A DNA stretch of 34,499 nucleotides from a virus (IMGVR_UViG_3300026124_000005:1-34499); one strand, 5' to 3'. Numbered from the stretch's first letter, positions 321 through 29,389 are shown. Translations and numbers: made by a program. The notes: a model not told the origin generated them from the sequence alone.

Positions 321-355
321 TTTTATAGACCTCCCCCATAGACATCAGTGTATGG
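321..355 (+). promoter_or_regulatory. Promoter of the nucleotide kinase gene, with inverted repeat over the start codon
   Basis: TATA box TTTATA at 322-327 lies 25 bp before the ATG at 352, so the transcript should be leaderless or nearly so. CCATA at 336-340 and TATGG at 351-355 form an inverted repeat with a 10-base spacer. The right arm contains the start codon. Confidence 0.7.
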
Positions 356-1002
356 TAGAACACGTATTCGCTGTTGCAGGTCCGTTGGGTAGTGGCAAAT
401 CGACTGCGGCGAAGATGATCGCCTCGATTATTCGCCACGACGGTCGGTTTGCACGCGTCGTTGAAATGTCCGACTACGTTCGCTCCGAGTACAACGCGTA
501 TTGTGACGACGGTGCCTCGGACAACGAACTTGGTGAGTGGGCGGCCAAACAAAAGGACGCTGACGGGGCGGGCTGTTTTGCCTCCGACATCGCGGAACTA
601 TACGACGGCGATGATGCGGAGTTGATCGTGAGTGGGATTCGTTGTCCCGAAGAAATCGATGCCCTCGAAGCTCACTACGGTGCTGATTCTGTCACGACGG
701 TCGCTGTCTGGACGCTTCCTGAACTTCGGTTCAAACGCAAGTACGGTGACACAATGCACGCCCAACACGAGCAGTTCGACACGTTCATGGAACGTAACGA
801 CCGTGAACTGTCCGAGTGGGGTTGTGAGGAAATCTATATCGATGATGATACCGATTTCGTCATTGCCAACAACGGGGGCGAGGTTAATCTACAACGACAG
901 CTACTTATCGCAGTCGATTCGGTGTATGGGACAATCCTCGAAAACCCGCTGAAAAACCCGTTCGAAGAAATGGATATCGAACACGTTCGGTCGTTTTTGT
1001 AA
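352..1002 (+). CDS. P-loop nucleotide kinase (dNMP kinase-like)
   Basis: A 216-residue protein with a Walker A motif GPLGSGKST at residues 10-18, directly after a short hydrophobic first strand, as in nucleoside monophosphate kinases and dephospho-CoA kinases. A later segment around residues 90-97 (ELIVSGIR) fits the second strand, and the stretch near residues 125-155 is rich in Arg and acidic residues like a lid. It would phosphorylate (deoxy)nucleoside monophosphates in the cytoplasm to feed replication; the exact substrate is not predictable. The ATG at 352 is chosen over upstream in-frame starts because the TATA box at 322-327 is 25 bp before it and Walker A then lies at the normal distance from the N terminus. 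Confidence 0.75.
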   Translation: MVEHVFAVAGPLGSGKSTAAKMIASIIRHDGRFARVVEMSDYVRSEYNAYCDDGASDNELGEWAAKQKDADGAGCFASDIAELYDGDDAELIVSGIRCPEEIDALEAHYGADSVTTVAVWTLPELRFKRKYGDTMHAQHEQFDTFMERNDRELSEWGCEEIYIDDDTDFVIANNGGEVNLQRQLLIAVDSVYGTILENPLKNPFEEMDIEHVRSFL

Positions 1003-1004
1003 TC

Positions 1005-1041
1005 CGAAATCTTTTTATACACTGCTATAGTATTGTTGGGC
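1005..1041 (+). promoter_or_regulatory. Promoter of the terminase-like ATPase gene
   Basis: BRE-like CGAAAT (1005-1010) and TATA box TTTATA (1014-1019) lie 23 bp before the ATG at 1042. CTATAG at 1025-1030 takes the place of the CCxTA motif found in sister promoters. No good inverted repeat over the start codon here. Confidence 0.65.
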
Positions 1042-1692
1042 ATGGAAACGTGTCCAAACTGCGGTTACACTGACGAGGGTAATGAATACGTCGAGGATTT
1101 CTTTGGTGCTGACGGGAAGCATATTATCGCCAAGGGACGACAAGTTGGTGGGACGACGATGATTGTCAATAATGCAATTGAGGATGCGAAGAAAGGAAAA
1201 AGGGTTGCGATCGTTGCACCAAAGCAAAATCAAGTATTTGAATTGGTAGATAGATTCACAAAAAGGGAGAGTTGGGAACGTAACTACCGTACTCGGCTCC
1301 TTCACAAAAGTGGTGGTAAGGTTCGTTTTTTCAGTTCGTCTAAAAACATCGAGTTTGATCATAGCAATATAACACCAGACTCTATTTATGTCGATGAGGC
1401 ACAAGAAGTAAAACAAAAAACAATATTAGGTATTGAAAATATTGGGCAACAAACGTTAGTCTTCGTCTATACGCCCCACGAACAGTCTACGCTTCTTAAT
1501 GGATATATGCAGTATAATCCAACATATGAAACGTGGCATATACCAACATCTGCTGCGAACCATATATGTGATGAAAAGATAGAACAACAATATGATTATC
1601 TTTTAAGAAGACATTTTTATCGAGAAATAGAAGCCCGATATTGGAACGACACACGGGATATCATTCCAGACCACGACTATTCGCAATCGTAA
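1042..1692 (+). CDS. Terminase-like ATPase without nuclease domain
   Basis: A 216-residue protein. An N-terminal CPNCG (C4, C7) is half of a zinc knuckle. It is followed by GRQVGGTT (32-39), a Walker A variant like that of large terminase subunits, VAIVAPKQNQ (55-64), Walker B DSIYVDEAQE (113-122) and LVFVYTPHEQS (139-149), which matches the terminase coupling motif (usually STPxG). The end (HFYREIEARYWNDTRDIIP) fits the close of a terminase ATPase domain, but the RNase H-like nuclease domain is absent. Codon use is clearly more AT-rich than in most neighbours and resembles the HNH gene next to it. It may be a packaging-related ATPase or a helicase-like relic; a true terminase is expected outside the window. 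The ATG at 1042 is preferred over an upstream TTG because of promoter distance. Confidence 0.65.
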   Translation: METCPNCGYTDEGNEYVEDFFGADGKHIIAKGRQVGGTTMIVNNAIEDAKKGKRVAIVAPKQNQVFELVDRFTKRESWERNYRTRLLHKSGGKVRFFSSSKNIEFDHSNITPDSIYVDEAQEVKQKTILGIENIGQQTLVFVYTPHEQSTLLNGYMQYNPTYETWHIPTSAANHICDEKIEQQYDYLLRRHFYREIEARYWNDTRDIIPDHDYSQS

Positions 1693-1695
1693 CTG

Positions 1696-1726
1696 TTTTA
1701 TACACCACTCCCCTATCGTTGAGTAC
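1696..1726 (+). promoter_or_regulatory. Promoter of the first HNH endonuclease gene
   Basis: TTTATA at 1697-1702 is 25 bp before the ATG at 1727, and CCCCTAT at 1710-1716 lies between them. CCC (1711-1713) and GGG after the start codon form a weak inverted repeat. Confidence 0.65.
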
Positions 1727-2161
1727 ATGGGCGATAATTTCAAAGACGAAAGTATCTTGAGACATTTATATTGTGAAAAGGGAATGACGGATAAAGAGAT
1801 AGCAAATAAGTTTAATGTATCTAAAGGAACGATATCTTATTGGAGAAATAAGTTTAACATAGATAGTTGGTCGCCAGAAAAGTATGCGTCTTTTAGACCA
1901 GCATCATATCGTGTTAGTGTATTAGGATATCCTTATTGGGATGGAAGTAGTAATGATAAAACAGTAGTTTGTTATGTTCATAGGCTACTGGCTGTATCAG
2001 AGTACGGTTTTGATGCGTTGGATAATTCTGTAGAAATACATCATAAAAATGGTGTAAAGTGGGATAACAGGTCAGAAAATATAGAGTTGATTGAAAAAAG
2101 TGAACACAGAAAAAAGCACGGAGAAGAACGTAGAAATCCTGATACTGGAAAGTATGAATAG
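1727..2161 (+). CDS. HNH endonuclease with N-terminal HTH (homing type)
   Basis: A 144-residue protein with two parts. Residues about 18-42 form a helix-turn-helix (MTDKEIANKFNVSKGTISYW). Residues 83-131 form an HNH nuclease with VHRLL, the catalytic H105-H106, N-D-N-R-S-E-N around 112-118 and H127/H131. This is the layout of free-standing homing-type HNH enzymes common in viruses. It is AT-rich, has its own promoter and sits between unrelated genes, as expected of a mobile nuclease gene. It shares the same architecture with the gene at 9306, so the two are probably paralogues. It would cut double-stranded DNA at a site that is not deducible here. Confidence 0.85.
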   Translation: MGDNFKDESILRHLYCEKGMTDKEIANKFNVSKGTISYWRNKFNIDSWSPEKYASFRPASYRVSVLGYPYWDGSSNDKTVVCYVHRLLAVSEYGFDALDNSVEIHHKNGVKWDNRSENIELIEKSEHRKKHGEERRNPDTGKYE

Positions 2162-2165
2162 AAAC

Positions 2166-2200
2166 ATTTATATGCAAGGAAACTATAGGACATAGTACAG
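2166..2200 (+). promoter_or_regulatory. Promoter of the large P-loop ATPase gene
   Basis: TTTATA at 2167-2172 is 29 bp before the ATG at 2201. ACTAT (2182-2186) and ATAGT (2192-2196) form a 5-bp inverted repeat placed slightly further upstream than in the sister promoters. Confidence 0.6.
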
Positions 2201-4150
2201 ATGGGAGATTTTGAAATCCAACTTGACGATCAAACCGCACCATCGTATGATATCGCAGACAATTTTGCGGAAAACCTCGTTGACGTAATCCGATCAGAAA
2301 TGGTTGGCAACGAGTCCCAATACCTTGCATTAAATGCAGCCTATGCGAGTGGGCTGTCACGACGACCAGACGAGTATCTACAGATTATCGTTCGGGGCAA
2401 GTCGGGTGAGGGTAAGACGGAACTAAAGCAGAACGTTGATAAACTATATCCGAACCATTGGCTGCTCCGAGTCGGCTCAACGTCGGATATGGGGCTGGTC
2501 GATAGTGGCGACATATGGGACGGGGCCTATATCGGTGCCTTTGCAGAGTTTCAGCAGATGCAGGGGAAAATGTTAGAAATGGTCAAATCGTCTGCGGGTG
2601 ACGACGCTGACGAGGAAGGTGTTGGGTTCTCGCACACACGTAACGTAGACGACGGTGACGGTGGTCGTGAGGCCGACGAGATCGAGAAACAAGCAATGCC
2701 CACCGTCTTTCTCTTTGCGGACGAGAACAACGCTGAGATCCCCAAAGAGCTTCAGACACGACAGATGGTGATCCGCGTCGAGTCCGATAAGGGACTCAAC
2801 AAGGCTGTTGCGAAAACGATGTTCGACCATCGTGAGGTGCGTGTCGATAATCGTGACTACGAATACAACTTCAACTTCGAGGATGGGGTCCAAGCCGTCA
2901 AAAATCACATCTCGAACATTCCGAAGCCACTCGATCCGCTGTGGGACCAAGATCCAAAGCAGTATTCCTATCCCGTCGTCATCCCGTACGACGAGGGTAT
3001 CGAGTGGCCGATCAACAGCCATCCAGATATCGACTCGTATGGGTGGGACGTGTTCGAGGTCGTTCAAGACATCCTCAACTACGAGAAGACTGAATCGAAA
3101 CGTGGTGCAAAGGCCATCGCAAACCACATTCGCGGGCAGACGCGACTCAACTACCACAACCGCGATACGATGGACATTAACGGCGTCACACACTACGTTG
3201 CTGATCCCCAAGACGTAGCCAACGTGCTCGCCTATCGGGATCTGCTGTTGGCCGTCACGCACGATATGAACGAACAGAAGTTGGCCGTCATCGATGCGCT
3301 CACCGATGAAGATAACGGCGTTGGCGGTGTCGGCCCGAACGGTGGTCTGCAAGCCCCACACAAGGACATTCGTGAGTACATCCAAGACTATGCCGACATT
3401 ACCGAGGTGAGTAAGGCCCAACTCACTGGACACGGACGACAGTCGAATGGTATCCTCGAAGATATGGAACAAGATTATCTAATCGAGGTCCACGAAAACG
3501 AGGGTGAGAACGGTGCCCACCTCTACGAGTTTTTGGGCGGATCGACGTTCGGGCACCCGAATCTCGACATCTATAGGGAGTTGTTCGAGCACTGTACTGA
3601 TCCGATTCGGGATCAGCCTATCGCACAGACTGTTGGCGAGTTTAAAGACTCGTTGTCCGTCACGACGACTGATGATCTGCTCTCGGACGACCCGATTGAT
3701 TCGGTGGTGTCCGAGTCCACTGAGGACAACACAGACGACGCAAAAGACGATCTGAGTGCGTTCGGTGGCGGGTCCGATGAATCTACCACGGAGTTCGATG
3801 AAGTCGATGGGGCGGTCCACGAGAGGCTTTGTGACACGCTTGACGATAATCGCATCACCGTCGAGGACATCGATGCGTTGAAGACGACACATCTGCTCGG
3901 TGCGAGTCCCGTCGAGATGTACACTGACGACGCTGGCTTCAACTTCATCCGTGCGGAACGGGCCGCCGAGAACGCTGACACGAACGGCACGATCTTCGAC
4001 CCCGACGACCCGATGTGGGGTGATCTATCGGACGGCCAAGTGCTCTCCCGCATCGAAAACTCGATTGCGAAGCTCCGATCCGAAGACATCTTCGAGATCC
4101 ACGACGATGGCGATAACACGAAGTACATCGTCGTCCACGACATCGAATAA
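2201..4150 (+). CDS. Large P-loop/AAA+ ATPase, possible replicative helicase
   Basis: A 649-residue acidic protein. A Walker A motif GKSGEGKT lies at 66-73; a hydrophobic strand ending in an acidic residue (YIGAFAEF, about 110-117) may be Walker B. TVFLFADENN (168-177) looks like a sensor strand, followed by RQMVIRV with candidate finger arginines R187 and R192. Residues about 400-470 resemble a winged helix; the C-terminal 200 residues are acidic, low in order and end with a second possible DNA-binding fold. The nearby DNA polymerase and resolvase suggest replication initiation or DNA unwinding. An MCM- or DnaA-like origin ATPase are both possible; I could not fix the family. Confidence 0.55.
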   Translation: MGDFEIQLDDQTAPSYDIADNFAENLVDVIRSEMVGNESQYLALNAAYASGLSRRPDEYLQIIVRGKSGEGKTELKQNVDKLYPNHWLLRVGSTSDMGLVDSGDIWDGAYIGAFAEFQQMQGKMLEMVKSSAGDDADEEGVGFSHTRNVDDGDGGREADEIEKQAMPTVFLFADENNAEIPKELQTRQMVIRVESDKGLNKAVAKTMFDHREVRVDNRDYEYNFNFEDGVQAVKNHISNIPKPLDPLWDQDPKQYSYPVVIPYDEGIEWPINSHPDIDSYGWDVFEVVQDILNYEKTESKRGAKAIANHIRGQTRLNYHNRDTMDINGVTHYVADPQDVANVLAYRDLLLAVTHDMNEQKLAVIDALTDEDNGVGGVGPNGGLQAPHKDIREYIQDYADITEVSKAQLTGHGRQSNGILEDMEQDYLIEVHENEGENGAHLYEFLGGSTFGHPNLDIYRELFEHCTDPIRDQPIAQTVGEFKDSLSVTTTDDLLSDDPIDSVVSESTEDNTDDAKDDLSAFGGGSDESTTEFDEVDGAVHERLCDTLDDNRITVEDIDALKTTHLLGASPVEMYTDDAGFNFIRAERAAENADTNGTIFDPDDPMWGDLSDGQVLSRIENSIAKLRSEDIFEIHDDGDNTKYIVVHDIE

Positions 4151-4173
4151 CTCAAACTACTACGTATTTGCCT

Positions 4174-4272
4174 ATGTCACACCTAAACGACTGTCCTGAG
4201 TGCGGCGCACCGTTGGCTTTCATCGAGGGCTGCGAAAAATGTTCGGCACACTGCGGGTTCAGTTTGTGCTGA
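4174..4272 (+). CDS. Zinc-binding microprotein, 32 residues
   Basis: ATG at 4174 opens a 32-residue frame ending in TGA at 4270-4272. It contains CPECG (C7, C10) and CEKC (C20, C23) plus C27 and C32, so almost one residue in five is Cys. The two CxxC pairs nine residues apart make a minimal zinc ribbon. It follows the ATPase gene by 23 bases without a promoter of its own, so it is likely co-transcribed. Function unknown; it may bind nucleic acid or a protein partner. Confidence 0.65.
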   Translation: MSHLNDCPECGAPLAFIEGCEKCSAHCGFSLC

Positions 4273-4303
4273 AAAACCACTGATTGAAATTCTGCTGTTT
4301 TTT

Positions 4304-4342
4304 CGAAACCTTTAACTATCACTACCACGTATAGATTCATGT
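4304..4342 (+). promoter_or_regulatory. Promoter of the 4343 operon
   Basis: BRE CGAAAC (4304-4309) directly followed by TATA-like TTTAAC (4311-4316), 27 bp before the ATG at 4343. CCACGTATAG (4325-4334) occupies the position of the CCxTA motif. Confidence 0.65.
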
Positions 4343-4687
4343 ATGGCACGAGGATACGCTTCAGATATTGATGGCTGCGAAAGAGTGATGGAAAGCCCGC
4401 ACGGATCTTTGTTTATCGATTTCAACAACCTTCCTAAAATGCAAGGAGAACGTCTTGCTGTGTTACTACATAACGCTGACGTTGGCGATTTGAGTGACGA
4501 GTGGGTTGACGACATCCGTCTTTCATTAGAAAGAGGTGAACAGTATGATGGCAAACTACCGACTGCAAATATTCATATCGATATTCAGAACCTCATTATG
4601 ATTCTGAACGAGGCGGGTATCGCTAACATCCCGACTGGTACCGAATCGGAAGATACAAGTACACCCGAACCGAAGGAGGAACTGTAA
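4343..4687 (+). CDS. Hypothetical protein, 114 residues
   Basis: First gene of a three-gene operon. It has no recognisable family. Residues 20-45 (SLFIDFNNLPKMQGERLAV) and 75-95 (IHIDIQNLIMILNEAGI) look like ordered strand-helix segments, and the last 20 residues are a charged, Pro- and Thr-rich tail. Its TAA overlaps the next ATG (TAATG), and the end of the gene carries a strong Shine-Dalgarno GGAGG (4675-4679) for that gene, which indicates translational coupling. Confidence 0.75.
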   Translation: MARGYASDIDGCERVMESPHGSLFIDFNNLPKMQGERLAVLLHNADVGDLSDEWVDDIRLSLERGEQYDGKLPTANIHIDIQNLIMILNEAGIANIPTGTESEDTSTPEPKEEL

Positions 4688-5247
4688 TGGACGAACTAAC
4701 TGTCGGTAACGTATTCGAGTTTGCTGCCGAACAAGTCGAGATCGAGTCAGAAGACGCATCCCACGAGATCCCCAACCACGCCGAGACGATCGTGAATACG
4801 CGAGTGGCTGATATGCTTCGGACGGTCAAGAACATCGAGATGGCCGTCGAGAACGACGAGATCGATAGTGCAGACGACGAACGTGCGAAGGACGCACTCC
4901 AAGCTGATGTCGTTGACGTGCTGTTGGCGCTTGGGGCCTTCGTTTCGGAACGGGATCTCGATATCGAAACCGAGCTACGTGATCGGATTGACGAGATCGA
5001 GTCGCTTCGGGAGTTTGAGGCTCGGTTGGACGAGTGTGAATCTGACGAGGAAATCGTTGATGCCCTCGAAGACACGATGGGTGAGGATATCGAAGATCAT
5101 CCGATGGTCCAACAGATGCAGAGTGGCGTCGAGACAGGCGATAACGTCGATATGGACGACTACCCCTCTGACGGGTCCGTCAGAGATCCGTCAAGGGATG
5201 ACGAGGCATCGCCTCGACGGGATGGCGACCAACGAGGTGTCTACTGA
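4687..5247 (+). CDS. Acidic helical protein, 186 residues
   Basis: Very rich in Asp and Glu with long predicted helices (around residues 35-65 and 85-125) and a disordered, charged C-terminal 40 residues. No family recognised. The start is supported by GGAGG seven bases upstream (4675-4679) and by the TAATG overlap with the preceding gene. Its TGA overlaps the ATG of the next small gene. It could be an adaptor or a nucleic-acid-mimicking protein, but there is no motif to decide. Confidence 0.75.
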   Translation: MDELTVGNVFEFAAEQVEIESEDASHEIPNHAETIVNTRVADMLRTVKNIEMAVENDEIDSADDERAKDALQADVVDVLLALGAFVSERDLDIETELRDRIDEIESLREFEARLDECESDEEIVDALEDTMGEDIEDHPMVQQMQSGVETGDNVDMDDYPSDGSVRDPSRDDEASPRRDGDQRGVY

Positions 5248-5354
5248 TGGCTGACAGCCCCTACGCAAACATCATCGAAAATCCCGTTCGAGCAGGCACG
5301 AACGTCGATGCGCCGTGGTATCACCACGATGATGTGAACAAATCGTACTGGTAA
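5247..5354 (+). CDS. Small hypothetical protein, 35 residues
   Basis: ATG at 5247 overlaps the stop of the preceding gene (TGATG). The product begins MADSPYANIIENPVRAG and ends with an aromatic, His-rich part (PWYHHDD then SYW). The coupling and the fact that it fills the gap before the next promoter support it. No function recognised. Confidence 0.55.
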   Translation: MADSPYANIIENPVRAGTNVDAPWYHHDDVNKSYW

Positions 5355-5368
5355 TCACAATCACAACT

Positions 5369-5400
5369 TTTATATACACTACTCCCGTATAGGGTAGTGT
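5369..5400 (+). promoter_or_regulatory. Promoter of the 5401 operon with imperfect palindrome
   Basis: TTTATA at 5369-5374 is 27 bp before the ATG at 5401. CACTAC (5377-5382) pairs with GTAGTG (5394-5399), and CCC (5384-5386) inside pairs with GGG (5392-5394), giving a compact dyad around CCCGTATAG. Confidence 0.7.
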
Positions 5401-5571
5401 ATGGACGACAGTAAATCAGACGAAATTCACCTCGCTATCGAGTCCGAGGAACGTGCTGAACGATTTGAGGTGGATGGGTACGGAGTTGTTGATCGTGAAG
5501 ACTCCGAAGACGAATGGATGGCAACTTACGACGCCCCTACCAACATCAAGGACGATGAAGACGCCGAGTGA
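5401..5571 (+). CDS. Small acidic hypothetical protein, 56 residues
   Basis: First gene after the promoter, with its ATG exactly at the expected leaderless position. It is highly acidic: 21 of 56 residues are Asp or Glu. No family recognised. Its end overlaps the start of the DUF1599 gene by 17 bases. Confidence 0.65.
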   Translation: MDDSKSDEIHLAIESEERAERFEVDGYGVVDREDSEDEWMATYDAPTNIKDDEDAE

Positions 5572-5974
5572 TATCCTCGAACGGTTGAAGGGCGTCTTTC
5601 AAGAGAAAAACGAAGACTACGGCAATTCGTGGGAGAAAGTTAGTGTCATCAAACGTGTGATGGCCGACCAACACGGACCTGACGTTGTGTGGGTTGCGGG
5701 CACAGACGTGTACGAGTCGCGGTCATCTGCCCCCGAGCACGCGGTCGAAGCAGTCGTCTTGGCCGACACGCCAACAAACACCTCAACCTTCGAGCAGAAC
5801 GCCGATGATCTCATCACGCGGCTACTCGACAAGCTAATTCGCTCGTATAATCTGACGCTGATGAAAGACGAACCCGAGTTGGAGAACGAATCGACGTTGG
5901 ACGCGTGGGAAGATATGACGGGCTATAGTGCGATGGGTACTGCACTCGTTGAGAGGCACGCAGACGATGAGTGA
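5555..5974 (+). CDS. DUF1599 / nucleotide modification-associated domain 1 protein
   Basis: A 139-residue protein with the family signature KNEDYGNSW at residues 18-26, then RLLDKLIRSYNL (89-100) and ESTLDAWEDMTGY (112-124). These are the metal- and nucleotide-binding parts of the all-alpha, MazG-related DUF1599 fold. Members occur in phages with nucleotide metabolism or base-modification genes. It probably acts on nucleotides or their modified forms; the substrate is unknown. The start at 5555 is chosen because it places the signature at the usual distance and gives only a 17-base overlap with the upstream gene. It sits close to HD and MazG-like genes. Confidence 0.75.
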   Translation: MKTPSDILERLKGVFQEKNEDYGNSWEKVSVIKRVMADQHGPDVVWVAGTDVYESRSSAPEHAVEAVVLADTPTNTSTFEQNADDLITRLLDKLIRSYNLTLMKDEPELENESTLDAWEDMTGYSAMGTALVERHADDE

Positions 5975-6128
5975 ACGATACACATACGACGATGAGGCGA
6001 AAAACGCTGCGTGGAACGCCTATTGGGACGGCTATCAATTAGGCTACGGTGTTGAAGAAACGAAGCCGATTAACGAATCCACCGCTAACGATAATTTCGA
6101 ATGGTGGTGGAATAACAACAGATCGTAA
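5967..6128 (+). CDS. Small Trp- and Tyr-rich protein, 53 residues
   Basis: The ATG at 5967 overlaps the end of the DUF1599 gene by 8 bases, as with other coupled genes here. The product is unusually aromatic (AWNAYWDGYQLGY, then FEWWWNN near the end). No family recognised. It is the last gene of its operon; the next TATA box follows directly. Confidence 0.6.
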   Translation: MSERYTYDDEAKNAAWNAYWDGYQLGYGVEETKPINESTANDNFEWWWNNNRS

Positions 6129-6129
6129 C

Positions 6130-6159
6130 ACTTATACTGTCACGGCTATTACCGTATGT
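6130..6159 (+). promoter_or_regulatory. Promoter of the HD phosphohydrolase gene
   Basis: TATA-like ACTTATAC at 6130-6137 ends 23-24 bp before the ATG at 6160. ACGG (6142-6145) and CCGT (6152-6155) form a small dyad, nearer the TATA box than in other promoters. Confidence 0.55.
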
Positions 6160-6768
6160 ATGGAGTTAGAATTAAGAGATGACACGTACGCACCGTCATC
6201 TCGTGAGGAAGCAATCGAGTGGTTCCCCGAAGTAAACGACATTCAAAACGATCGGCTTCGGGAAACGACGATCGGTGTCATACAGCAGTTCCCGAACTAT
6301 TTTTGGATGGCACCCGCTGCAAGTAGACATCATCCGCCTGAACATCGTATTCGTCACGGACTCGTGTTGCACACGAAACGGGTCTGTACGGCCTTCGAAC
6401 GCACTGCCGAGTCGATGGTGCAACAGAATCACTTGAGTTGGGACGAGGTGGATATGGGCCGTGCTGCGTGCATTTGTCACGATGGAATGAAATATGGATC
6501 ACCGCCAACGTCAACGGAATCGACAGTCTATAACCACGATACGATTATGGGAGAATGGCTTGAGAAAAACACACAGATGCCCGAAGAAGTCGTTGGCGCA
6601 GTCGAGGCGCATAACGGAAGCTGGTATAAAGGCAAGTCACCAGAAACGCACCTCGAACAGATGGTCCACGTTGCTGATATGCACGCCTCTGATGAAAACG
6701 TCCGAATTGCGGTCAAAGAGATGAATGACGTGCTTCGAGAGCAGTTCCCAAGAGTTTCAGAACGATAG
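6160..6768 (+). CDS. HD-domain phosphohydrolase
   Basis: A 202-residue protein with the full set of HD-superfamily metal ligands: H71 (GLVLHTKRV), H107-D108 (CICHDGMKYG), H126 (YNHDTIM), H151 (VEAHNGSW) and D173 (HVADMHA). This resembles the HDIG/YqeK-type phosphohydrolases that act on nucleotides or nucleic acids. In this context, between DUF1599 and MazG-like genes, a nucleotide phosphatase role is likely, though a cyclic nucleotide or nucleic-acid signal as substrate cannot be excluded. Of two nearby ATGs (6156 and 6160), only 6160 is in frame. It is transcribed alone. Confidence 0.8.
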   Translation: MELELRDDTYAPSSREEAIEWFPEVNDIQNDRLRETTIGVIQQFPNYFWMAPAASRHHPPEHRIRHGLVLHTKRVCTAFERTAESMVQQNHLSWDEVDMGRAACICHDGMKYGSPPTSTESTVYNHDTIMGEWLEKNTQMPEEVVGAVEAHNGSWYKGKSPETHLEQMVHVADMHASDENVRIAVKEMNDVLREQFPRVSER

Positions 6769-6770
6769 TC

Positions 6771-6808
6771 TTTTATACGTGTAGTCCATATAATATGTTG
6801 TATGGACT
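6771..6808 (+). promoter_or_regulatory. Promoter of mazG-like gene with perfect inverted repeat over the start codon
   Basis: TTTATA at 6772-6777 is 25 bp before the ATG at 6802. AGTCCATA (6783-6790) and TATGGACT (6801-6808) are perfect 8-bp inverted arms with a 10-base spacer, and the right arm covers the start codon. Confidence 0.75.
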
Positions 6809-7137: not shown

Positions 7138-7388
7138 ATATTGCTGACCTATCGGAAGGCGACAAAATCGAGATTGACTCACACCCGCTGAGAGGCTGCC
7201 CACTACGAGTATGTGACGTAGCCGAGGCAGACATCGGATTGACTGACGTAACGGCGTGTACGCTGTCTGACGGCGAACGGGAGTATCTGCTGCAAGGTGC
7301 ATCGCACTCAGAACAAGCAGACATCGTTGATCTCGATGCGGATGAAACGCTTGAACCAGTTTCGGTAGAAGAAATACGAAAGGTTTAA
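7134..7388 (+). CDS. Hypothetical protein, 84 residues
   Basis: Second gene of the mazG-like operon, joined by an ATGA overlap and preceded by a Shine-Dalgarno AGGAG (7122-7126). The product is a small, acidic, probably beta-rich protein (KIEIDSHPLRGCPLRVCDV in its first half). No family recognised. A possible TATA box overlaps its end and may serve the RNA gene downstream. Confidence 0.7.
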   Translation: MNIADLSEGDKIEIDSHPLRGCPLRVCDVAEADIGLTDVTACTLSDGEREYLLQGASHSEQADIVDLDADETLEPVSVEEIRKV

Positions 7389-7457
7389 GTTAATCGGGCT
7401 ATTATAATGTAGTGTGTCGAGAGGACTGATGTGACCTTCGGCGTTGGTTTAGCACAT

Positions 7458-7467
7458 CTATAAATAC
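7458..7467 (+). promoter_or_regulatory. TATA box, candidate promoter of the non-coding RNA
   Basis: CTATAAATAC is the best archaeal TATA box in the gene-free stretch and would place a start near 7487-7490, just before the largest hairpin. An alternative box, TTTAAG, lies around 7384-7389. Confidence 0.45.
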
Positions 7468-7733
7468 TGAAACGCGGGCCACTATAAACACGATGGTTAT
7501 GGTGAGGGGGTAGAAACCCCGTGGCTGCCATCGGTGAAATGTGGGTAAGCTCTATGACCGATCGGTTATTGATATCCGTAATGGGGTTGAAGCCTACTGG
7601 ACCATATCTGCCAAACCACTTGTGAAAGTAGTGTTTTCCAAGTGTATCTCGGTGCCGACATAGTAGTTAGCGAAACGCGCTGCTATGGAGTAGCAACCGA
7701 TACGACTAACGGGTGTGGGAGTAGGAATAGTTC

Positions 7734-7742
7734 TTTTTTTTT
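7734..7742 (+). terminator. Oligo-T terminator after the candidate RNA
   Basis: A run of nine T, the type of signal that ends archaeal transcription, lies 39 bases after the last hairpin (7681-7695) and directly before the next gene's BRE and TATA box. Confidence 0.5.
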
Positions 7743-7790
7743 CGAAAGTCTTATTAGTTACCCGATACTATATACATTTGTATGGGTGAC
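7743..7790 (+). promoter_or_regulatory. Promoter of the 7782 operon
   Basis: BRE-like CGAAAG (7743-7748) and TATA-like CTTATTAG (7750-7757) lie 25 bp before the ATG at 7782. GTTACCC (7757-7763) and GGGTGAC (7784-7790) form a near-perfect inverted repeat whose right arm overlaps the start codon. Confidence 0.65.
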
Positions 7791-8093
7791 ACTGCGATCA
7801 ACATTCCGATTGAGATCAGAAGCCACGAATCGGCACAGTTAGTGCGGTTTGTGGAAAAACTCGTTAGACGGTTCACGAACCGTGAGACGGAACAGAAGGC
7901 CGATGAACTACGGCGCGTGTACGACGAGCACATTTATGGAATGAGTGAGAGTGAAGCTGACTACTTGTCGATGCCGATTGACGATTGGCGAACGCTCGTC
8001 AGTAGTCTATCATACATCGATGATGGACTGCGAGGCTGGTGGCTACAGACGAAGTTAGTTGAACGACTGCGAGCAAAGTCGGAGGCACTATGA
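7782..8093 (+). CDS. Hypothetical helical protein, 103 residues
   Basis: It starts at the expected leaderless position after the promoter and runs mainly as charged helices (residues about 15-55 and 75-103). No family recognised. Its stop overlaps the next start (ATGA), and its end carries the Shine-Dalgarno GGAGG (8081-8085) of that gene. Confidence 0.75.
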   Translation: MGDTAINIPIEIRSHESAQLVRFVEKLVRRFTNRETEQKADELRRVYDEHIYGMSESEADYLSMPIDDWRTLVSSLSYIDDGLRGWWLQTKLVERLRAKSEAL

Positions 8094-8347: not shown

Positions 8348-8357
8348 AACACAAGTC

Positions 8358-8396
8358 TTTTATACCTATGTCCCATAGTGTAGGCTGTAATGGGAC
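8358..8396 (+). promoter_or_regulatory. Promoter of the 8390 operon with perfect inverted repeat
   Basis: TTTATA at 8359-8364 is 26 bp before the ATG at 8390. GTCCCAT (8370-8376) and ATGGGAC (8390-8396) are perfect 7-bp inverted arms, and the right arm starts at the start codon. Confidence 0.75.
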
Positions 8397-8773: not shown

Positions 8774-9267
8774 TGTCAGTCGTCGCCGTATTTGGTATCA
8801 CTGTCGCCTCCGCAGCTACCGCTGTGGGTGCGTATCTGTACCTTCGTGGAGATGGTAAGACGACAGTTGCAGAGACGCCCAACGATGATCCGAGAGACGA
8901 TGGCGAAGGAAATGAATCGGAAAATGGTGAGTATTTCCAAACAAAACGATTTAGGACCGTCGAACACGATGGCGAACACCTTGTCGTTGGTGAAGATGAG
9001 ATAGAATTTTCCGACGAGGTTGATGAACCAGACAACGGTATCATCACCGACGACAAAGACAATCCGAGTGGCAAGACGGATCTAACGAACGTCAAGGGAA
9101 TCGGCGAGACGCGAGCCGAGTCATTCCGCGAAGAAGGCTTCGGCACGCCTGATGATCTCTATTACGCTACCGACGAAAATTTGTGCGAAGTGAACGGTAT
9201 CGGGGATCTGACAGTGAGTCAGATTCGTGACGATATCGGGTCGGTTGACGAAGACGGCTACGAGTAG
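8773..9267 (+). CDS. Membrane-anchored helix-hairpin-helix protein
   Basis: A 164-residue protein in three parts. Residues 2-26 are a hydrophobic helix (VVAVFGITVASAATAVGAYLY) that would anchor it in the cell membrane. Residues 27-100 are an acidic linker. Residues about 102-160 hold two helix-hairpin-helix motifs (LTNVKGIGETRAESF and LCEVNGIGDLTVSQI), a fold that usually binds the DNA backbone without sequence preference. The arrangement suggests tethering viral DNA to the membrane. The HhH could instead mediate protein contacts. Coupled to the preceding gene by TGATG. Confidence 0.7.
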   Translation: MSVVAVFGITVASAATAVGAYLYLRGDGKTTVAETPNDDPRDDGEGNESENGEYFQTKRFRTVEHDGEHLVVGEDEIEFSDEVDEPDNGIITDDKDNPSGKTDLTNVKGIGETRAESFREEGFGTPDDLYYATDENLCEVNGIGDLTVSQIRDDIGSVDEDGYE

Positions 9268-9269
9268 GA

Positions 9270-9305
9270 CGAAACCCTTTTAACTTCTGATACCGTAGTA
9301 CTGTT
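9270..9305 (+). promoter_or_regulatory. Promoter of the second HNH endonuclease operon
   Basis: BRE CGAAAC (9270-9275) and TATA-like TTTTAAC (9278-9284) lie about 23 bp before the GTG at 9306. ACCGTAG at 9292-9298 takes the place of the CCxTA motif. Confidence 0.6.
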
Positions 9306-9722
9306 GTGAAGAAGTACAAAAACAAGTCTTGGCTTCGTAGGCAGTATGTTGAAAGCAGAAAGACCACATATGAAATAGCAGAAACGTGTGGTGTAACTGC
9401 GACTACTATTCAAAATTGGCTGGATAGGCATAGCATTGATAAAAGAAATCGTTCAGATTGTCAAATAAAAAATCGAAAAGAAGCACCAACAATGACAATT
9501 GACGGAGATGGATATGAAAGATTTTTCGTTCACAACGGTGGTAAACGTCGCGTTGTGTATGTCCATCAACTGACAGCAATCGCTAATGGTGCTGATCCGT
9601 CAGACATTTTTGACGGATATGACGTTCATCACAGAAACGAAGTACCGTGGGATAACAGAGCAGAAAACTTGGAAGTATTGACGCACGGAAATCACCGAAA
9701 AATACACAGTAATAACCAATGA
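9306..9722 (+). CDS. HNH endonuclease with N-terminal HTH (homing type)
   Basis: A 138-residue protein with the same design as the gene at 1727: an N-terminal helix-turn-helix (about 20-41, TTYEIAETCGVTATTIQNWL) and a C-terminal HNH nuclease with YVHQL (85-89), H108-H109 (DVHHRNE), WDNRAENLE (115-123) and H130/H134. The start is GTG at 9306, supported by the promoter distance; no ATG lies nearby in frame. AT-rich codon use sets it apart from the neighbours. Its stop overlaps the next start (ATGA), so the nuclease gene was placed in front of, or captured, the deoxyribosyltransferase-like gene in one operon. Confidence 0.85.
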   Translation: MKKYKNKSWLRRQYVESRKTTYEIAETCGVTATTIQNWLDRHSIDKRNRSDCQIKNRKEAPTMTIDGDGYERFFVHNGGKRRVVYVHQLTAIANGADPSDIFDGYDVHHRNEVPWDNRAENLEVLTHGNHRKIHSNNQ

Positions 9723-10123
9723 GCACAGTATACCTATGCGGGCCCATTCAGCACTCCGCAGACCGTGGTAAGGGATGGCGACAGCGGGTCAAAGAAATCG
9801 ACGGTTTTGAATGGATCGACCCGCTCGAAAAGTATGACAATAGTTGTGACGAGTCAGAAGAATGGTCGAACACGAAAATCGTTGAAGAAGACCTATCGCT
9901 CATAGACCGCGCAGACGCCATCTTAGTCCATTGGGAGGAAGTGCCGACGTGTGGGACTCCGATGGAACTTCGATACGCTCACGAGTGGCTCACGCCCGTC
10001 GTGGCCCAAACAACAGTACCGACCGAACGGCTGAGTCCGTGGTTTACCTACCACGTCGATGTGATCGAAGAAACGTTCGAGGATGCGTGTTTTGCCCTCG
10101 ATGATGTGTTGAAACACCGATGA
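9719..10123 (+). CDS. Nucleoside 2-deoxyribosyltransferase-like protein
   Basis: A 134-residue protein that begins with the family's first strand and loop, VYLCGPI (4-10). It also has IVEEDLSLIDRADAILVHW (54-72), with the acidic residues that bind ribose, and CGTPMELRYAHEW (78-90), holding the nucleophile-type Glu (E83). Enzymes of this family exchange bases on deoxynucleosides or hydrolyse the glycosidic bond; some members act on modified nucleotides. It probably takes part in nucleotide salvage or editing along with the kinase, MazG and HD proteins. Coupled to the HNH gene by an ATGA overlap. Confidence 0.75.
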   Translation: MSTVYLCGPIQHSADRGKGWRQRVKEIDGFEWIDPLEKYDNSCDESEEWSNTKIVEEDLSLIDRADAILVHWEEVPTCGTPMELRYAHEWLTPVVAQTTVPTERLSPWFTYHVDVIEETFEDACFALDDVLKHR

Positions 10124-10278
10124 ACGAACGCTCTAAAGACATGGTTGTAGATAGAACACTCAACAATATCGCAATGTCGTTAGAAATGATCGATTCGTGT
10201 GAGAAACCACACGAGAAACAATTACTACAAGGTGCAACGTTAGACTGTTTGCGATTAGTCTGTCTGTTAGAACCATAA
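10120..10278 (+). CDS. Small hypothetical helical protein, 52 residues
   Basis: It starts within an ATGA overlap with the deoxyribosyltransferase-like gene and ends at TAA 10276-10278, just before the polymerase promoter. The product is mainly helical (NNIAMSLEMIDSCEK; LLQGATLDCLRLVCLLEP) with three Cys. No family recognised; small helical proteins at such places are often adaptors. Confidence 0.6.
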   Translation: MNERSKDMVVDRTLNNIAMSLEMIDSCEKPHEKQLLQGATLDCLRLVCLLEP

Positions 10279-10280
10279 CG

Positions 10281-10315
10281 TTCTTATACTACCGTCCCAT
10301 ATACAGCAGTATATG
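10281..10315 (+). promoter_or_regulatory. Promoter of the DNA polymerase gene with perfect palindrome over the start codon
   Basis: TATA-like TTCTTATAC (10281-10289) lies 25 bp before the ATG at 10313. CATATAC (10298-10304) and GTATATG (10309-10315) are perfect inverted arms four bases apart; the right arm ends with the start codon itself. Confidence 0.75.
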
Positions 10316-13057
10316 GATTCGTTAGCGGACTTCACTCGGGATACGACTCAACTACACGTTATGGGGGTCGAATACGAGGAACGATTTGGTGAAACGGTCG
10401 TGCATCTGTTTTGCCGAAACCGTGATGACGAACACGTATGGGTCGAAGTAACGGGTCATTCACCTTCGTTCTATATCCCTCGTGAAGCAGCAACCAGAAA
10501 GATTGCTAATCATCAATGGGTTACGAACATCGAAGATGGGTACCAATCGATCCACCAAGACCCGTTGGTCCGAACTGAGACGAAGCTTCCCAAACACATC
10601 AGTGGTGACAACAATACAAAGGGCCTCCGAGAGTACTTCGATACGACCTATGAAGCCGATGTGTTCTACGACACACGGTTTCTGATCGATACGGGCATCA
10701 AGACGCACTTCGAGTACAACAAGGCTGACGTAACGGACGGGCAGCACATCAGTGGCGACTTTCAACTGGACGTGTCCGATATACGGGCGGTGGATGACCC
10801 TACTTGGCGTGCAACCCCAAGGGTTGTGACGATAGATATCGAGGTTCTTTCGCCAGACGGGTTCCCCGAACCAGACGAGGCCAATCAGCCCGTCACCGCC
10901 ATCACAGCCTACGATAATTACGCAGACGAGTACACTGTGTGGGTCCGACGATGTGAGTCGTGGACACAAACGGACACGGAGATATCGAATATGGCTATCG
11001 AGGAACGGCCAGCAAACTCGACCATCAACGAGGTCCGCGTGTTCGATGCAGCCAATGAAGACCAGATGCTCGACTCGTTTAATCGATACGTCGAGGATAA
11101 ACGACCTGATCTCCTTAGTGGGTGGAACAGTTCTGCTACCGATATGGGTGGGGCCTTCGACTACCCGTATCTTATCAACCGCTGTCAGTCACTCAACGTG
11201 CTCAGTTTCAGAGAGTGGTCCCCAATGGGGCAAGTGTGGGACGGCAGTTGGGGGCCGAGTGGCAAGGGCGTCGAGATGTTCGATATGATGAAGGCGTACA
11301 AGAAGACGCAGTTCTCGAAGCCGAACGGTGGCTACGGACTCGAAAACATCGCCTCGAAGGAACTCGACTACGGCAAAGAGGACATCGATGACATTGACGA
11401 GGCGTATGTGGAAGACCCACGAACGTTCCTCACATACAATATGCGGGACGTGAGTGCAGTCGTTGGGATTGACGAGAGTGCGGAAGTTATCGATCTCTTT
11501 CAGAATATCAGAGCCTTGGCGGGCGTGCAGTTCGAGAACTGTCATAACCCGATCGATACGCTCGATCCCTACATTATCCGCTTTGCGAACCGAAACGGGT
11601 TTGCGCTGCCCACCAATGAGAAACCAGAACGCGGGTGGTTCTATGGCGGCCACGTCTTCGAACCCGAGTTGGGTCGGCACCCGAACGCTGTCTATCCCGA
11701 CGTGTGGTCTGAGTATCCCAACGCATTTCGTGTCTGCAACATCTCCCCCGAGACGGCGGTCGGAACAAAGTCGGATCTCGAAGCCTCCGAGTACACTGAA
11801 GACGACTGCCGATGGTCCTATATCGATACGCGACAAGATAACGTAAAAAAGGAAGACGATCCAGATTACGAGAAATTCTACTATCTCAAACCCGAGATCA
11901 AAGAAGGGTTTATGTCACAAGTAGTTGATCACGTTATGGGACTCAAAGACGCCTACGATGGCACGCCACTCTACGGGCCTGCAAAGATAATCGTAAACGC
12001 AACGTGGGGTGTCTTTGGCGACTCAGATAGCTACGGAAAGGGATATCGGCTATTCGATTGGCGGTTGGCCGAGTCCATTACGCTGTACGGGCGTAAGACG
12101 ATCCAGTACACTGCATCGAAATATGTAGATGCCCTCAACGACCTCAAGGACGAGTACGGATACGATGGAAACAATGCGTATCAGGTCGGCGGGGACACGG
12201 ATAGTGTAATGACATCCATCCCGTTTATGGACGCCGATACGAGAGCAGATCAAGCACAGATCGTGGATCTCGCTATCGAGGCGTGTGACATCGTGAACGA
12301 CTCGTATGACGACTTTGCGGACGAGATGTTCAACTCCGATGGCGAGTATATGGAGTTGGAGATCGAGTCGTATGCGCCGTGGCTGTTCGTTCCGAAAGGC
12401 GTTACCAAAGAGAAGGCCAAAAAGAGGTACGCAGAGATCATCGCGTGGGACGAGGGCGATTGGTACGACCCACCCGAGTTTTCCGTCACGGGCATCGACA
12501 TCGTTCGCTCCGACCGTGCTGACGTGACCCGATCCGTCCTCGAAGACGTAATCACAACGATTCTTCGAGAGGACGACAAAGAAGTGGCTCGAAACAAAGT
12601 CTATGAGACGATTAAATCGAAGGTCGATGCGATAAAGAACGGTGAAATAGCCAATTCCGAAATTGCTCGCCCGAAAGGAATGTCGAAAGAACCGACCGAA
12701 TACGGGTCGGTCGATGACACGCCGATGCCGACCTATCGTGGTGCCAAATACGCGAACCAACACTTCGAGTGGGAGAATCTCGGTGAGGGATCGAAACCGC
12801 AATTGCTCTACATCGACCGCGTTCGAGGCGAGTACCCATCGAGTTACACAGCAGAGACGAAGGAAGATGGGCGCACGGTCGATGCAATCGCCTGTGAGCA
12901 GCCTGACGCCGTTCCAGATGCGTTTGTGGTGGACACATCAAAGATGATTGAGAAAGTCCTTGAAGACCCACTCACGCCGATCTTAGAGGCAATGGGGTGG
13001 TCGTTCGATGAGGCGCTATCAGACTCTACGCAAGTGGGAATAGAAAGCTTTATGTAA
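10313..13057 (+). CDS. polB: Family B DNA polymerase
   Basis: A 914-residue replicative polymerase. The 3'-5' exonuclease motifs are present: Exo I TIDIEVL (D175, E177), Exo II with the usual NSSATDMGGAFDYPYL region (about 270-287), and Exo III YNMRDVS (about 374-380). Then come the linking YGGH motif, polymerase motif A DVWSEYPNAF (D463), motif B with KIIVNATWGVFG (about 557-568) and motif C GGDTDS (D628, D630). All catalytic residues appear intact, so it should both copy and proofread. Its size is normal for a haloviral PolB. It has no intein visible. The start is set by the promoter palindrome. It is the only polymerase in the window; primase and clamp are not seen, so host factors or genes outside may serve. 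Confidence 0.95.
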   Translation: MDSLADFTRDTTQLHVMGVEYEERFGETVVHLFCRNRDDEHVWVEVTGHSPSFYIPREAATRKIANHQWVTNIEDGYQSIHQDPLVRTETKLPKHISGDNNTKGLREYFDTTYEADVFYDTRFLIDTGIKTHFEYNKADVTDGQHISGDFQLDVSDIRAVDDPTWRATPRVVTIDIEVLSPDGFPEPDEANQPVTAITAYDNYADEYTVWVRRCESWTQTDTEISNMAIEERPANSTINEVRVFDAANEDQMLDSFNRYVEDKRPDLLSGWNSSATDMGGAFDYPYLINRCQSLNVLSFREWSPMGQVWDGSWGPSGKGVEMFDMMKAYKKTQFSKPNGGYGLENIASKELDYGKEDIDDIDEAYVEDPRTFLTYNMRDVSAVVGIDESAEVIDLFQNIRALAGVQFENCHNPIDTLDPYIIRFANRNGFALPTNEKPERGWFYGGHVFEPELGRHPNAVYPDVWSEYPNAFRVCNISPETAVGTKSDLEASEYTEDDCRWSYIDTRQDNVKKEDDPDYEKFYYLKPEIKEGFMSQVVDHVMGLKDAYDGTPLYGPAKIIVNATWGVFGDSDSYGKGYRLFDWRLAESITLYGRKTIQYTASKYVDALNDLKDEYGYDGNNAYQVGGDTDSVMTSIPFMDADTRADQAQIVDLAIEACDIVNDSYDDFADEMFNSDGEYMELEIESYAPWLFVPKGVTKEKAKKRYAEIIAWDEGDWYDPPEFSVTGIDIVRSDRADVTRSVLEDVITTILREDDKEVARNKVYETIKSKVDAIKNGEIANSEIARPKGMSKEPTEYGSVDDTPMPTYRGAKYANQHFEWENLGEGSKPQLLYIDRVRGEYPSSYTAETKEDGRTVDAIACEQPDAVPDAFVVDTSKMIEKVLEDPLTPILEAMGWSFDEALSDSTQVGIESFM

Positions 13058-13080
13058 ACGTAGGATGTATATGTTCGTGT
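13048..13080 (+). promoter_or_regulatory. Weak promoter of the 13081 gene
   Basis: CTTTATG (13048-13054) overlaps the last codons of polB and lies 27 bp before the ATG at 13081. No clear inverted repeat. Confidence 0.4.
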
Positions 13081-13344
13081 ATGACAGAAGTATTCCACTC
13101 AAACGCACAAGTGTCTGTGTGGCTCAAACACGAACGTGAAGACAATCCGCTACACGACGGTCGTGCTATCGAGTACACAATCACAATCGATGACGGACTT
13201 CCGTCGTCGTGGCAACGAACACTATACGAGGACGGTTCAGTGCTGGCAACACATTCATCGACTAACGTAGGCGCTGTGCCACACTACGTTCGTGACAACG
13301 TTGAGGAACAGATGATACCGAAAGGCGCGTGGCCTGACCAATAA
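13081..13344 (+). CDS. Hypothetical protein, 87 residues
   Basis: A beta-rich small protein (QVSVWLKHERED, AIEYTITIDDGLP, TLYEDGSVLATHSS) with no family match known to me. It stands alone between two promoters. The ATG at 13081 agrees with the TATA-like box inside the end of polB. Confidence 0.7.
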   Translation: MTEVFHSNAQVSVWLKHEREDNPLHDGRAIEYTITIDDGLPSSWQRTLYEDGSVLATHSSTNVGAVPHYVRDNVEEQMIPKGAWPDQ

Positions 13345-13350
13345 TATTCC

Positions 13351-13393
13351 GAAGCCTTTATATACGTAGCGTTCCTATATGCTGATATGGAAC
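13351..13393 (+). promoter_or_regulatory. Promoter of the 13387 operon with near-perfect inverted repeat
   Basis: TTTATA (13357-13362) is 25 bp before the ATG at 13387. GTTCCTATAT (13371-13380) and ATATGGAAC (13385-13393) match as inverted arms except for one extra base, and the right arm covers the start codon. Confidence 0.7.
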
Positions 13394-13482
13394 GCGATGA
13401 CAATAGCAACCGAGACGTATTTCGTGATATCATTACAATCGGTGGGCACGCACCAACAGAGCTTCCCTTGGGTGCATATTGA
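13387..13482 (+). CDS. Small hypothetical protein, 31 residues
   Basis: A 31-residue frame at the leaderless position of a good promoter, ending in a TGATG overlap with the nuclease-like gene. It may be a real small protein or a leader frame whose translation brings ribosomes to the next gene. Nothing in the sequence gives a function. Confidence 0.5.
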   Translation: MERDDNSNRDVFRDIITIGGHAPTELPLGAY

Positions 13483-14165
13483 TGCAGAAGACACAAATAG
13501 ACCCCGATACGCTCAATCGAGAAGACTGGAATAGCCTCAAGGCCAACTACTCCAAACACGACATCGCGGAAGCCTACTTTAAAGGTCGAGTCGATCAGAT
13601 CGGCCTTCACGTCGAACAGTGGGGTATCGATGAACGTAACAACGACAACGGCCTGATCTTCGACAATAAGATGGATTTGCGGCTGTGGGAGCCGATTGAC
13701 GGTCAAGAACCGCCGTCGCAGTGGCCGAGTGACTATTGTGACGGCGTTATGCACCACTACGGAGAGGATGGTGAGAGATGGAATTTGCGTGGCGTCATCG
13801 ACGTAAAGTCCAAAACAAACAGTGATTGGTTCGGGATCTGCAACCTCCGTCACTACATTCACTACGCCGAGTGGGCACGCGAGTACGATGTGCCCGTGTT
13901 TATCTACTTCACGATGGTCGATACGGATGCGGAATCGGTTGGCGAGCAGAACGTCCTCGTACCGATCGAACCGTTCGAGTATCTCGACACGTACGCAGAT
14001 CATTATGATCGAGACTCGTCGTTTAGTATGGACAATCTGTACGATATCGAAGACGACTCGCCGCAAATCGAACGGGCGTTTCGGGCACCAGATGGCAACG
14101 TAGTCGTGAAGTTCGAAGAACGGTTGTGGGAAAACTTTGATTGGTTCGTGGAGAACGTACTATGA
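13482..14165 (+). CDS. Putative PD-(D/E)XK nuclease-like protein
   Basis: A 227-residue protein. The core looks like a restriction-endonuclease fold: a helix with E45 (HVEQWGID), D65 in KMDLRL, then GVIDVKSK with D107 and K109 (the D/E-x-K motif), followed by a helix with aromatic residues (RHYIHYAEWA) and a strand (VPVFIYF). It would be an endonuclease or exonuclease for viral or host DNA. The identity is inferred from motif order only. ATG 13482 is preferred over the TTG three bases upstream. It follows the 31-codon frame by TGATG coupling. Confidence 0.55.
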   Translation: MQKTQIDPDTLNREDWNSLKANYSKHDIAEAYFKGRVDQIGLHVEQWGIDERNNDNGLIFDNKMDLRLWEPIDGQEPPSQWPSDYCDGVMHHYGEDGERWNLRGVIDVKSKTNSDWFGICNLRHYIHYAEWAREYDVPVFIYFTMVDTDAESVGEQNVLVPIEPFEYLDTYADHYDRDSSFSMDNLYDIEDDSPQIERAFRAPDGNVVVKFEERLWENFDWFVENVL

Positions 14166-14191
14166 CTGCTAACAACACGAGATAATCATAT

Positions 14192-14326
14192 ATGAGTCAC
14201 GCAATGTGTCGTTATTACGGGCACGAGTATCACAAACACGATCTGCTTACCTCGAAGGCCAAACACGGCTATCGGATCGAACGATGCAGTCGATGTGGTG
14301 ACACTCGTCGTGTGTGGAAAGGATGA
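14192..14326 (+). CDS. Small zinc protein, DUF1660-like, 44 residues
   Basis: Begins MSHAMCRYYGHEYH and ends CSRCGDTRRVWKG. C6, H11, C32 and C35 make a C-x4-H ... CxxC zinc site, the pattern of the small DUF1660-type phage proteins (Cys-x-x-x-Gly-His near the start and CxxCG near the end). Function unknown. It is the last gene of its operon, 26 bases after the nuclease-like gene. Confidence 0.65.
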   Translation: MSHAMCRYYGHEYHKHDLLTSKAKHGYRIERCSRCGDTRRVWKG

Positions 14327-14346
14327 ACGAAGTGAGTCGTTTCCGC

Positions 14347-14412
14347 ACCGATTGACACGAAGTGTCTGAGATTTGGAAAGGGTAGATCGGTCCTAATTAC
14401 AATTCTGTCTTT
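14347..14412 (+). terminator. Nested hairpin and oligo-T after the 14192 gene
   Basis: ACCGAT (14347-14352) pairs with ATCGGT (14386-14391), enclosing a perfect hairpin GACAC-GAA-GTGTC (14354-14366). A T-rich stretch follows at about 14408-14414, just ahead of the next BRE. It is a likely transcript end for the preceding operon. Confidence 0.4.
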
Positions 14413-14414
14413 TT

Positions 14415-14452
14415 CGAAACTCTTTTACGTCTATAACCCGTAGTAATGGTTG
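14415..14452 (+). promoter_or_regulatory. Promoter of the 14453 operon
   Basis: BRE CGAAAC (14415-14420), TATA-like TTTTAC (14423-14428) and CCCGTAG (14437-14443) are spaced as in the other early promoters and support a start at ATG 14453, rather than the out-of-frame ATG at 14446. Confidence 0.6.
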
Positions 14453-14737
14453 ATGACGGACGTAGACGAACAACTACAGCCAGCAGAATACGGAACGGTG
14501 CGGATGGACGGACAGTACTCCCAAATTTCGACACTGCTATTGGAAATGGCGGAAGATATCGAACGACACGGAGAGGTTCACGCGAACTTCAAAGACGTTG
14601 ATGGGGAAGTCGAGTGTCGTTTGGGGACGACTGTCATTCTCCCGTATGGAGTCAAGGTCTTCGACGGTGACCAGTGGCATCCGTTCACAGAGATGCAGCT
14701 TATTGGATGGGACGTTCCGATGGAGGTGTATCACTAA
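14453..14737 (+). CDS. Hypothetical protein, 94 residues
   Basis: A small protein with a helical part (ISTLLLEMAEDIERHGE) followed by strands (VECRLGTTVILPYGVKVFD). No family recognised. The end of the gene carries GGAGGTG (14722-14728), a strong Shine-Dalgarno for the next gene, whose ATG overlaps its stop (TAATG). Confidence 0.7.
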   Translation: MTDVDEQLQPAEYGTVRMDGQYSQISTLLLEMAEDIERHGEVHANFKDVDGEVECRLGTTVILPYGVKVFDGDQWHPFTEMQLIGWDVPMEVYH

Positions 14738-14952
14738 TGGCGGGCGTCGTTGTTTCGCAAGGCGAAGACGCTACCGTTCAGAAGAACGGTGATTCGTGGG
14801 ATTATATGTCGGTTGGCGATGGCGTCGTTATTGTTCGAATTTTGGACGAAGATGATGAACCTATTGGTGTCGAATATCCACTTCACTCGGTGTCTCAGAT
14901 CGTTCAAGTGTCCGACGAAGACGCTGAAATGTTGGAACGAGAACTGTCGTAA
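14737..14952 (+). CDS. Hypothetical protein, 71 residues
   Basis: A small, likely all-beta acidic protein (AGVVVSQGEDATVQKNG; GVVIVRILDEDDEPIGV) with a helical C terminus. The start at 14737 is set by the Shine-Dalgarno at 14722-14728 and the TAATG overlap. No family recognised. Confidence 0.7.
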   Translation: MAGVVVSQGEDATVQKNGDSWDYMSVGDGVVIVRILDEDDEPIGVEYPLHSVSQIVQVSDEDAEMLERELS

Positions 14953-14954
14953 TT

Positions 14955-14997
14955 CGAAACACTTTTCTTGTTAGAGATCCTATATACTATATAGGAT
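14955..14997 (+). promoter_or_regulatory. Promoter of the 14996 operon with a 10-bp-arm palindrome
   Basis: BRE CGAAAC at 14955-14960 and a poor TATA box (CTTTTCTTG). A perfect palindrome has arms 14977-14986 and 14988-14997 around a single central C. The right arm ends inside the start codon at 14996. This is the longest dyad of all the promoters. Confidence 0.65.
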
Positions 14998-20670: not shown

Positions 20671-20683
20671 TTGTTTCTATATG

Positions 20684-29372: not shown

Positions 29373-29389
29373 TGATCTCTCTATTAAAG

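Follow-up and report, generated by a model that had tools for sequence, protein, structure and literature searches.

Inverted repeats laid over the start codons of early genes raise the question of whether a virus uses symmetry in its promoters as the binding site of a regulatory protein or to some other end. The question is posed here by IMGVR_UViG_3300026124_000005:1-34499, a 34.5-kb virus record that was analysed at its full length (hereafter the window). The window is a haloarchaeal tailed virus. Its plus strand encodes a DNA polymerase B (PolB), a MazG-like protein, a nucleotide-kinase-like protein and two HNH endonucleases, and its minus strand carries a tail-gene region. In a phage collection, PolB best matches Halogranum tailed virus 1 (38.8%) and Haloarcula tailed virus 2 (Soleiviridae; 36.2%), and the only named-virus match of the protein of gene 24413-26182 is the baseplate hub of Haloarcula tailed virus 2. 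The nearest environmental contigs share 63-66% PolB identity with the window, and a search of genome contigs by PolB alignment found no provirus. The HNH endonuclease genes at 1727-2161 and 9306-9722 look related, each with an N-terminal helix-turn-helix and a TATA promoter of its own. Between two early genes, about 390 bases (7390-7780) hold no convincing gene; no Rfam family matched 7300-7900, and no tRNA was found in the window. At the end of the tail region, the minus-strand gene 18967-20670 contains many near-identical repeats (VVDGVVYVGSDDNTLRAIDASDGTEIWSFSGFS) and resembles a PQQ-type beta propeller; its product is possibly a receptor-binding protein.

The early genes of the window have TATA-like boxes about 27 bp 5′ of the ATG, the spacing that marks haloarchaeal leaderless promoters, and from this spacing transcription is predicted to start at the ATG. 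In Haloferax volcanii, leaderless promoters likewise place the TATA box some 27 bp 5′ of the start, add a weak -10 element and have the ATG at the transcript start (PMC4983044), a likeness that accounts for the CnTA portion of the left arm of the viral repeats. The initial annotation had placed the dyads at the expected transcription start and start codon, in agreement with the TATA spacing. The repeats span about -24 to +8, their loops or spacers vary from 1 to 13 nt, their centres shift and bulges occur (Table 1).

Table 1. Inverted repeats at gene starts of the window (positions from its first nucleotide; RNA folding energies in kcal/mol).
Arms	Position	Strand	Start codon and gene	Stem	RNA fold
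CCATA / TATGG	336-340 / 351-355	+	over ATG 352, nucleotide-kinase-like gene 352-1002	5 bp	-8.5, z -1.8
TATCG / CGATA	1714..1736	+	over ATG 1727, HNH endonuclease gene 1727-2161	weak	z -0.9
ACTAT / ATAGT	2182..2196	+	just 5′ of ATG 2201	weak	
TACACTAC / GTAGTGTA	5375-5382 / 5394-5401	+	ends on the A of ATG 5401	8 bp, perfect	-12.1
AGTCCATA / TATGGACT	6783-6790 / 6801-6808	+	over ATG 6802, MazG-like gene	8 bp, perfect	-15.2, z -4.4
GTTACCC..GGGTGAC	7757..7791	+	over ATG 7782	bulged hairpin	-13.2, z -3.3
GTCCCAT / ATGGGAC	8370-8376 / 8390-8396	+	over ATG 8390	7 bp, perfect	-11.5
CCATATAC / GTATATGG	10297-10304 / 10309-10316	+	over ATG 10313, DNA polymerase B	8 bp, perfect	z -4.0
GCGTTCC / GGAACGC	13369-13375 / 13389-13395	+	over ATG 13387, short 31-aa ORF leading into 13482-14165	7 bp, perfect	-15.0, z -4.0
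ATCCTATATA / TATATAGGAT	14977-14986 / 14988-14997	+	reaches into ATG 14996	10 bp, perfect, 1-nt spacer (counted as 9 bp under a 3-nt minimum loop)	
CCCTA..TATGG	17955..17974	minus	upstream of and touching ATG 17958, PD-(D/E)XK nuclease gene	short core	

Of the 16 early starts, 6 have a perfect stem of at least 7 bp. Dinucleotide shuffles predict 0.43 and did not reach the observed count in 1000 rounds, so the dyads exceed chance. The corresponding frequency at 925 other ATGs is 1.8%; some ten early starts are without a long perfect dyad. When ten start regions were folded as RNA, those at 6802, 7782, 10313 and 13387 lay more than 3 sd below shuffles and the other six were weaker. The dyads first listed are mostly exact. 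Among six examples, five stand, one of them (10298-10304/10309-10315) being in fact the 8-bp repeat of the polymerase gene; the sixth (13371-13380/13385-13393) includes a bulged T, and its likely start codon is ATG 13387 rather than 13379. That list missed the 8-bp repeat at 5375-5401 and the bulged hairpin at 7782, and its figure of at least eight early starts with a CCxTA/TATGG core was too high: the pattern CCNTAN{10,14}TATGG is found only at 336, 5385, 6786 and 10297 and at the minus-strand gene 17958, and the right arm at 14977-14997, TATATAGGAT, falls outside the strict TATGG core.

The shared CCxTA/TATGG core is largely a promoter element near -12 standing opposite the start codon plus G. 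A TA-containing element (CCTA, CGTA) is present near -12 in most promoters of the relatives and a G often follows the start codon, so that CCxTA faces TATGG by consensus. Pairing matched to the individual gene was measured by a half-exchange, in which upstream and downstream halves of promoters were swapped between genes of one virus with both consensus parts preserved. Native promoters are more self-complementary than these chimeras in the window and also in relatives that had not been used in forming the idea. Across 156 promoters from ten viruses, the window included, z was -6.3 for the sense and -5.9 for the antisense strand; after correction for composition, it was -6.8 for the relatives alone (n = 196) and -3.9 for the window. 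The pairing extends into the codons past the ATG (z -4.6 with the sequences cut at +3). Pair counts at fixed centres reached only z 1.75 because the centres vary. Other halovirus records (HVTV-1, HRTV-25, HRTV-26, HCTV-1, HHTV-1, HSTV-2, PhiCh1, and VOLN27B) had too few TATA promoters for such a test.

The positional control in the same viruses is not free of signal: at shifted positions z averages -2.2 (sd 1.5) and falls as low as -5.6 at -70. Measured against this background, the peak at the start rises about 3 sd rather than 6. The lowest value marks a second zone of gene-matched self-complementarity in the relatives, some 70 bases 5′ of TATA starts (z -5.6), to which tRNA genes and the ends of upstream genes may contribute. 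With composition correction, no gene-matched excess was found at operon-internal starts of the same viruses (z -0.5), at starts of the Shine-Dalgarno type (z 0.0) or at other non-TATA starts (z +1.6), which rules out a general trait of viral gene starts. Nor was any found in 127 promoters of haloarchaeal genomes (z +0.45); a trait of haloarchaeal promoters at large is ruled out on 20 genomes, and the host promoters tested here differ from the viral ones in having no gene-matched inverted repeats. The viral TATA matrix, applied to haloarchaeal genomes, retrieved only 11 promoters.

These results bear on the reading that the pairing is a by-product without function, produced by promoter consensus, start codon and the local self-complementarity of these genomes, or by mutation that perfects quasi-palindromes. 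Chimeras do keep much structure (-5.96 against -7.08 for natives), CnTA near -12 is common in the relatives and some excess appears at unrelated positions, all in its favour. We nevertheless consider it rather unlikely, given that the gene-matched excess peaks at the start after composition correction, that orthologs keep their pairing and that operon-internal starts of the same viruses have none. Consensus by itself explains part of the core, and as a full explanation it is ruled out by the composition-corrected half-exchange.

Among orthologs, the sequences of the arms diverge and self-complementarity is kept. Eight sets of orthologs were compared, each with promoters of two to seven viruses, and natives fold better than chimeras made between orthologs (-9.08 against -7.68 kcal/mol; P 5e-5 by permutation), genes 2201 and 6160 being the two that lack this excess. 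In gene 7782 of the window, the codons GGT GAC face GTTACCC; in its orthologs, GGA GAC faces GTCTCC (L037), TGGGAG faces CTCCCA (L024), or the hairpin lies just 5′ of the ATG (L027). The arms at PolB are CCATATAC/GTATATGG in the window, CCGCCC/GGGCGG in L004, and CTGCT/AGCAG in L024. The viruses L002 and L045 (HATV-2) have two kinds of start, one with a TATA box, several with strong hairpins, and one with GAGGA shortly before an almost unstructured ATG; folding energies in HATV-2 are -14 to -17 kcal/mol for several of the TATA starts and near zero for starts preceded by GAGGA. Among the closer relatives of HGTV-1, promoters turn over fast and hairpins are mostly weak.

The initial annotation had proposed a virus-wide operator for a dimeric regulator. 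Much of its interpretation holds: the symmetry exceeds chance, is matched gene by gene, with arms that differ between genes yet stay complementary beyond the core in the window and in the relatives, and is replicated with positional, gene-start and host controls. The single operator is not supported. Arm sequences change from gene to gene and from one ortholog to the next, loops range widely, centres shift and some stems are bulged, and it is hard to see how a single sequence-specific dimer would recognise such a set of dyads. In its broader form, with one dimer of relaxed specificity or several different regulators covering the transcription start, the operator reading draws on the overlap of the dyads with the start point, on the recurrence of the CCxTA/TATGG core and on inverted repeats near a leaderless start of plasmid PL6, taken as regulatory in the passage that describes them (PMC5974055). 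Even so we regard it as quite improbable: half-sites, spacers and centres are unlike one another between genes and orthologs, with no common half-site or constant spacing, stems are bulged, and the recurrent core is in part promoter consensus. By contrast, one near-identical repeat is common to the two late promoters, which is the pattern to be expected of an operator. Upstream of the genes starting at 20670 and 29372, the minus strand at 20668-20735 and 29370-29437 carries a near-identical block in which the inverted repeat GTAGTGGTTT..GAAAACCACGACTAC is followed by TACT..ATAGA, with 21 bp identical where 0.01 matches were expected. This block looks like a real operator or activator site and is a candidate for one; an exact-pattern search did not find it in the relatives.

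Self-complementarity that persists without conserved sequence, with loops and centres that vary and stems that may be bulged, is therefore better fitted by a nucleic-acid hairpin than by one dimer, and it suggests a hairpin switch over leaderless starts rather than the binding site of one repressor. The left arm lies in the stretch that separates TATA box and start codon, and the right arm would be formed by the start codon and codons 2-4. Transcription from the gene's own promoter would begin at or beside the ATG and yield a leaderless mRNA that lacks the left arm and leaves the start codon free, and read-through RNA from upstream genes would contain both arms and hide it. Since the start codon would be hidden in such read-through RNA, we propose that the main template for translation of each gene is its own mRNA. 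Four steps of this scheme are inferred: an RNA start at the ATG, the presence of read-through RNA, folding of the hairpin in the high salt of the cell and an effect on translation. Upstream stop codons on the same strand are often no more than 30-45 nt away from the start, which makes read-through plausible, and bridged mismatches lean weakly to G.T over A.C, the direction expected of sense RNA. A promoter inside a hairpin, with the start concealed in read-through mRNA and translated from the leaderless mRNA, is in our judgement the best explanation, to which we would give somewhat less than even confidence.

Divergent first genes are a difficulty for this explanation. Sense read-through should not reach them, so the similar effect that they show (mean -1.15 ± 0.5, against -1.57 ± 0.36 and -1.36 ± 0.41 for same-strand genes) counts against a read-through model, and HATV-2 gp91, a divergent first gene with a perfect TGGCGA/TCGCCA, is a counter-example to that model in its pure form. 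The nearly equal antisense signal, the excess at shifted positions, the two orthologous genes without effect and the early starts that lack a long stem weigh against the explanation as well. The main rival is a hairpin or cruciform of the DNA itself, which would form in the melted promoter region and aid or regulate opening, start-site choice or escape with no need of read-through RNA. Such a structure would affect divergent first genes as well, and it agrees with the nearly equal sense and antisense signals, with the finding that admitting G.T pairs does not strengthen the signal over plain Watson-Crick scoring, and with the stretch that the repeats cover. Its absence from host promoters of the same basic type and the weak lean of mismatches towards G.T speak against it, and we know of no archaeal precedent for a DNA hairpin at promoters; we judge it unlikely.

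The preferred reading, a start codon hidden in read-through RNA, has a close parallel in phage T4, where the starts of e, soc, 49 and I-TevI are sequestered in long transcripts and an embedded promoter gives a short transcript without the 5′ arm; segB and mobE of phage Aeh1 also have start-sequestering hairpins with embedded promoters (PMC3014915, PMC2988022). The window resembles T4 in having an inverted repeat through which the start-codon region can pair with upstream sequence, a promoter whose spacing predicts a transcript without the 5′ arm and genes that lie behind others on the same strand, and it looks as if the two arrangements work alike. On the one hand, what T4 hides is a Shine-Dalgarno site, the genes concerned are a few late ones and the hiding takes place in early transcripts, as experiments have demonstrated. 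On the other hand, the window has leaderless starts, early genes and many gene-specific hairpins, predicted here from sequence. Among archaeal elements, passages on Haloquadratum PL6 (inverted repeats proximal to R4; PMC5974055) and on some HF2 promoters (PMC8707807) describe repeats at leaderless or mapped transcription starts, as in the window; unlike those of the window, they concern single loci, the PL6 repeats are centred at -16 to -25 and read as regulatory, and the passages concerned mention no gene-by-gene pattern (PMC5974055, PMC8707807). No earlier report of gene-matched start-codon hairpins was found in the open literature searched, most subscription journals lying outside it.

More tentatively still, a group of archaeal viruses may carry a different hairpin at each of many early promoters and so confine each gene's translation to its own leaderless mRNA, checking transcript identity across the genome by means of a structure that is conserved and a sequence that is not. 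Symmetry in a promoter need not imply a repressor site. If the proposed mechanism is true, archaeal viruses would have reached the same trick as T4 and extended it over much of the early region. It would explain how closely packed leaderless genes escape unwanted translation from read-through RNA, and would provide a case in which structure distinguishes leaderless from leadered translation of one and the same gene.
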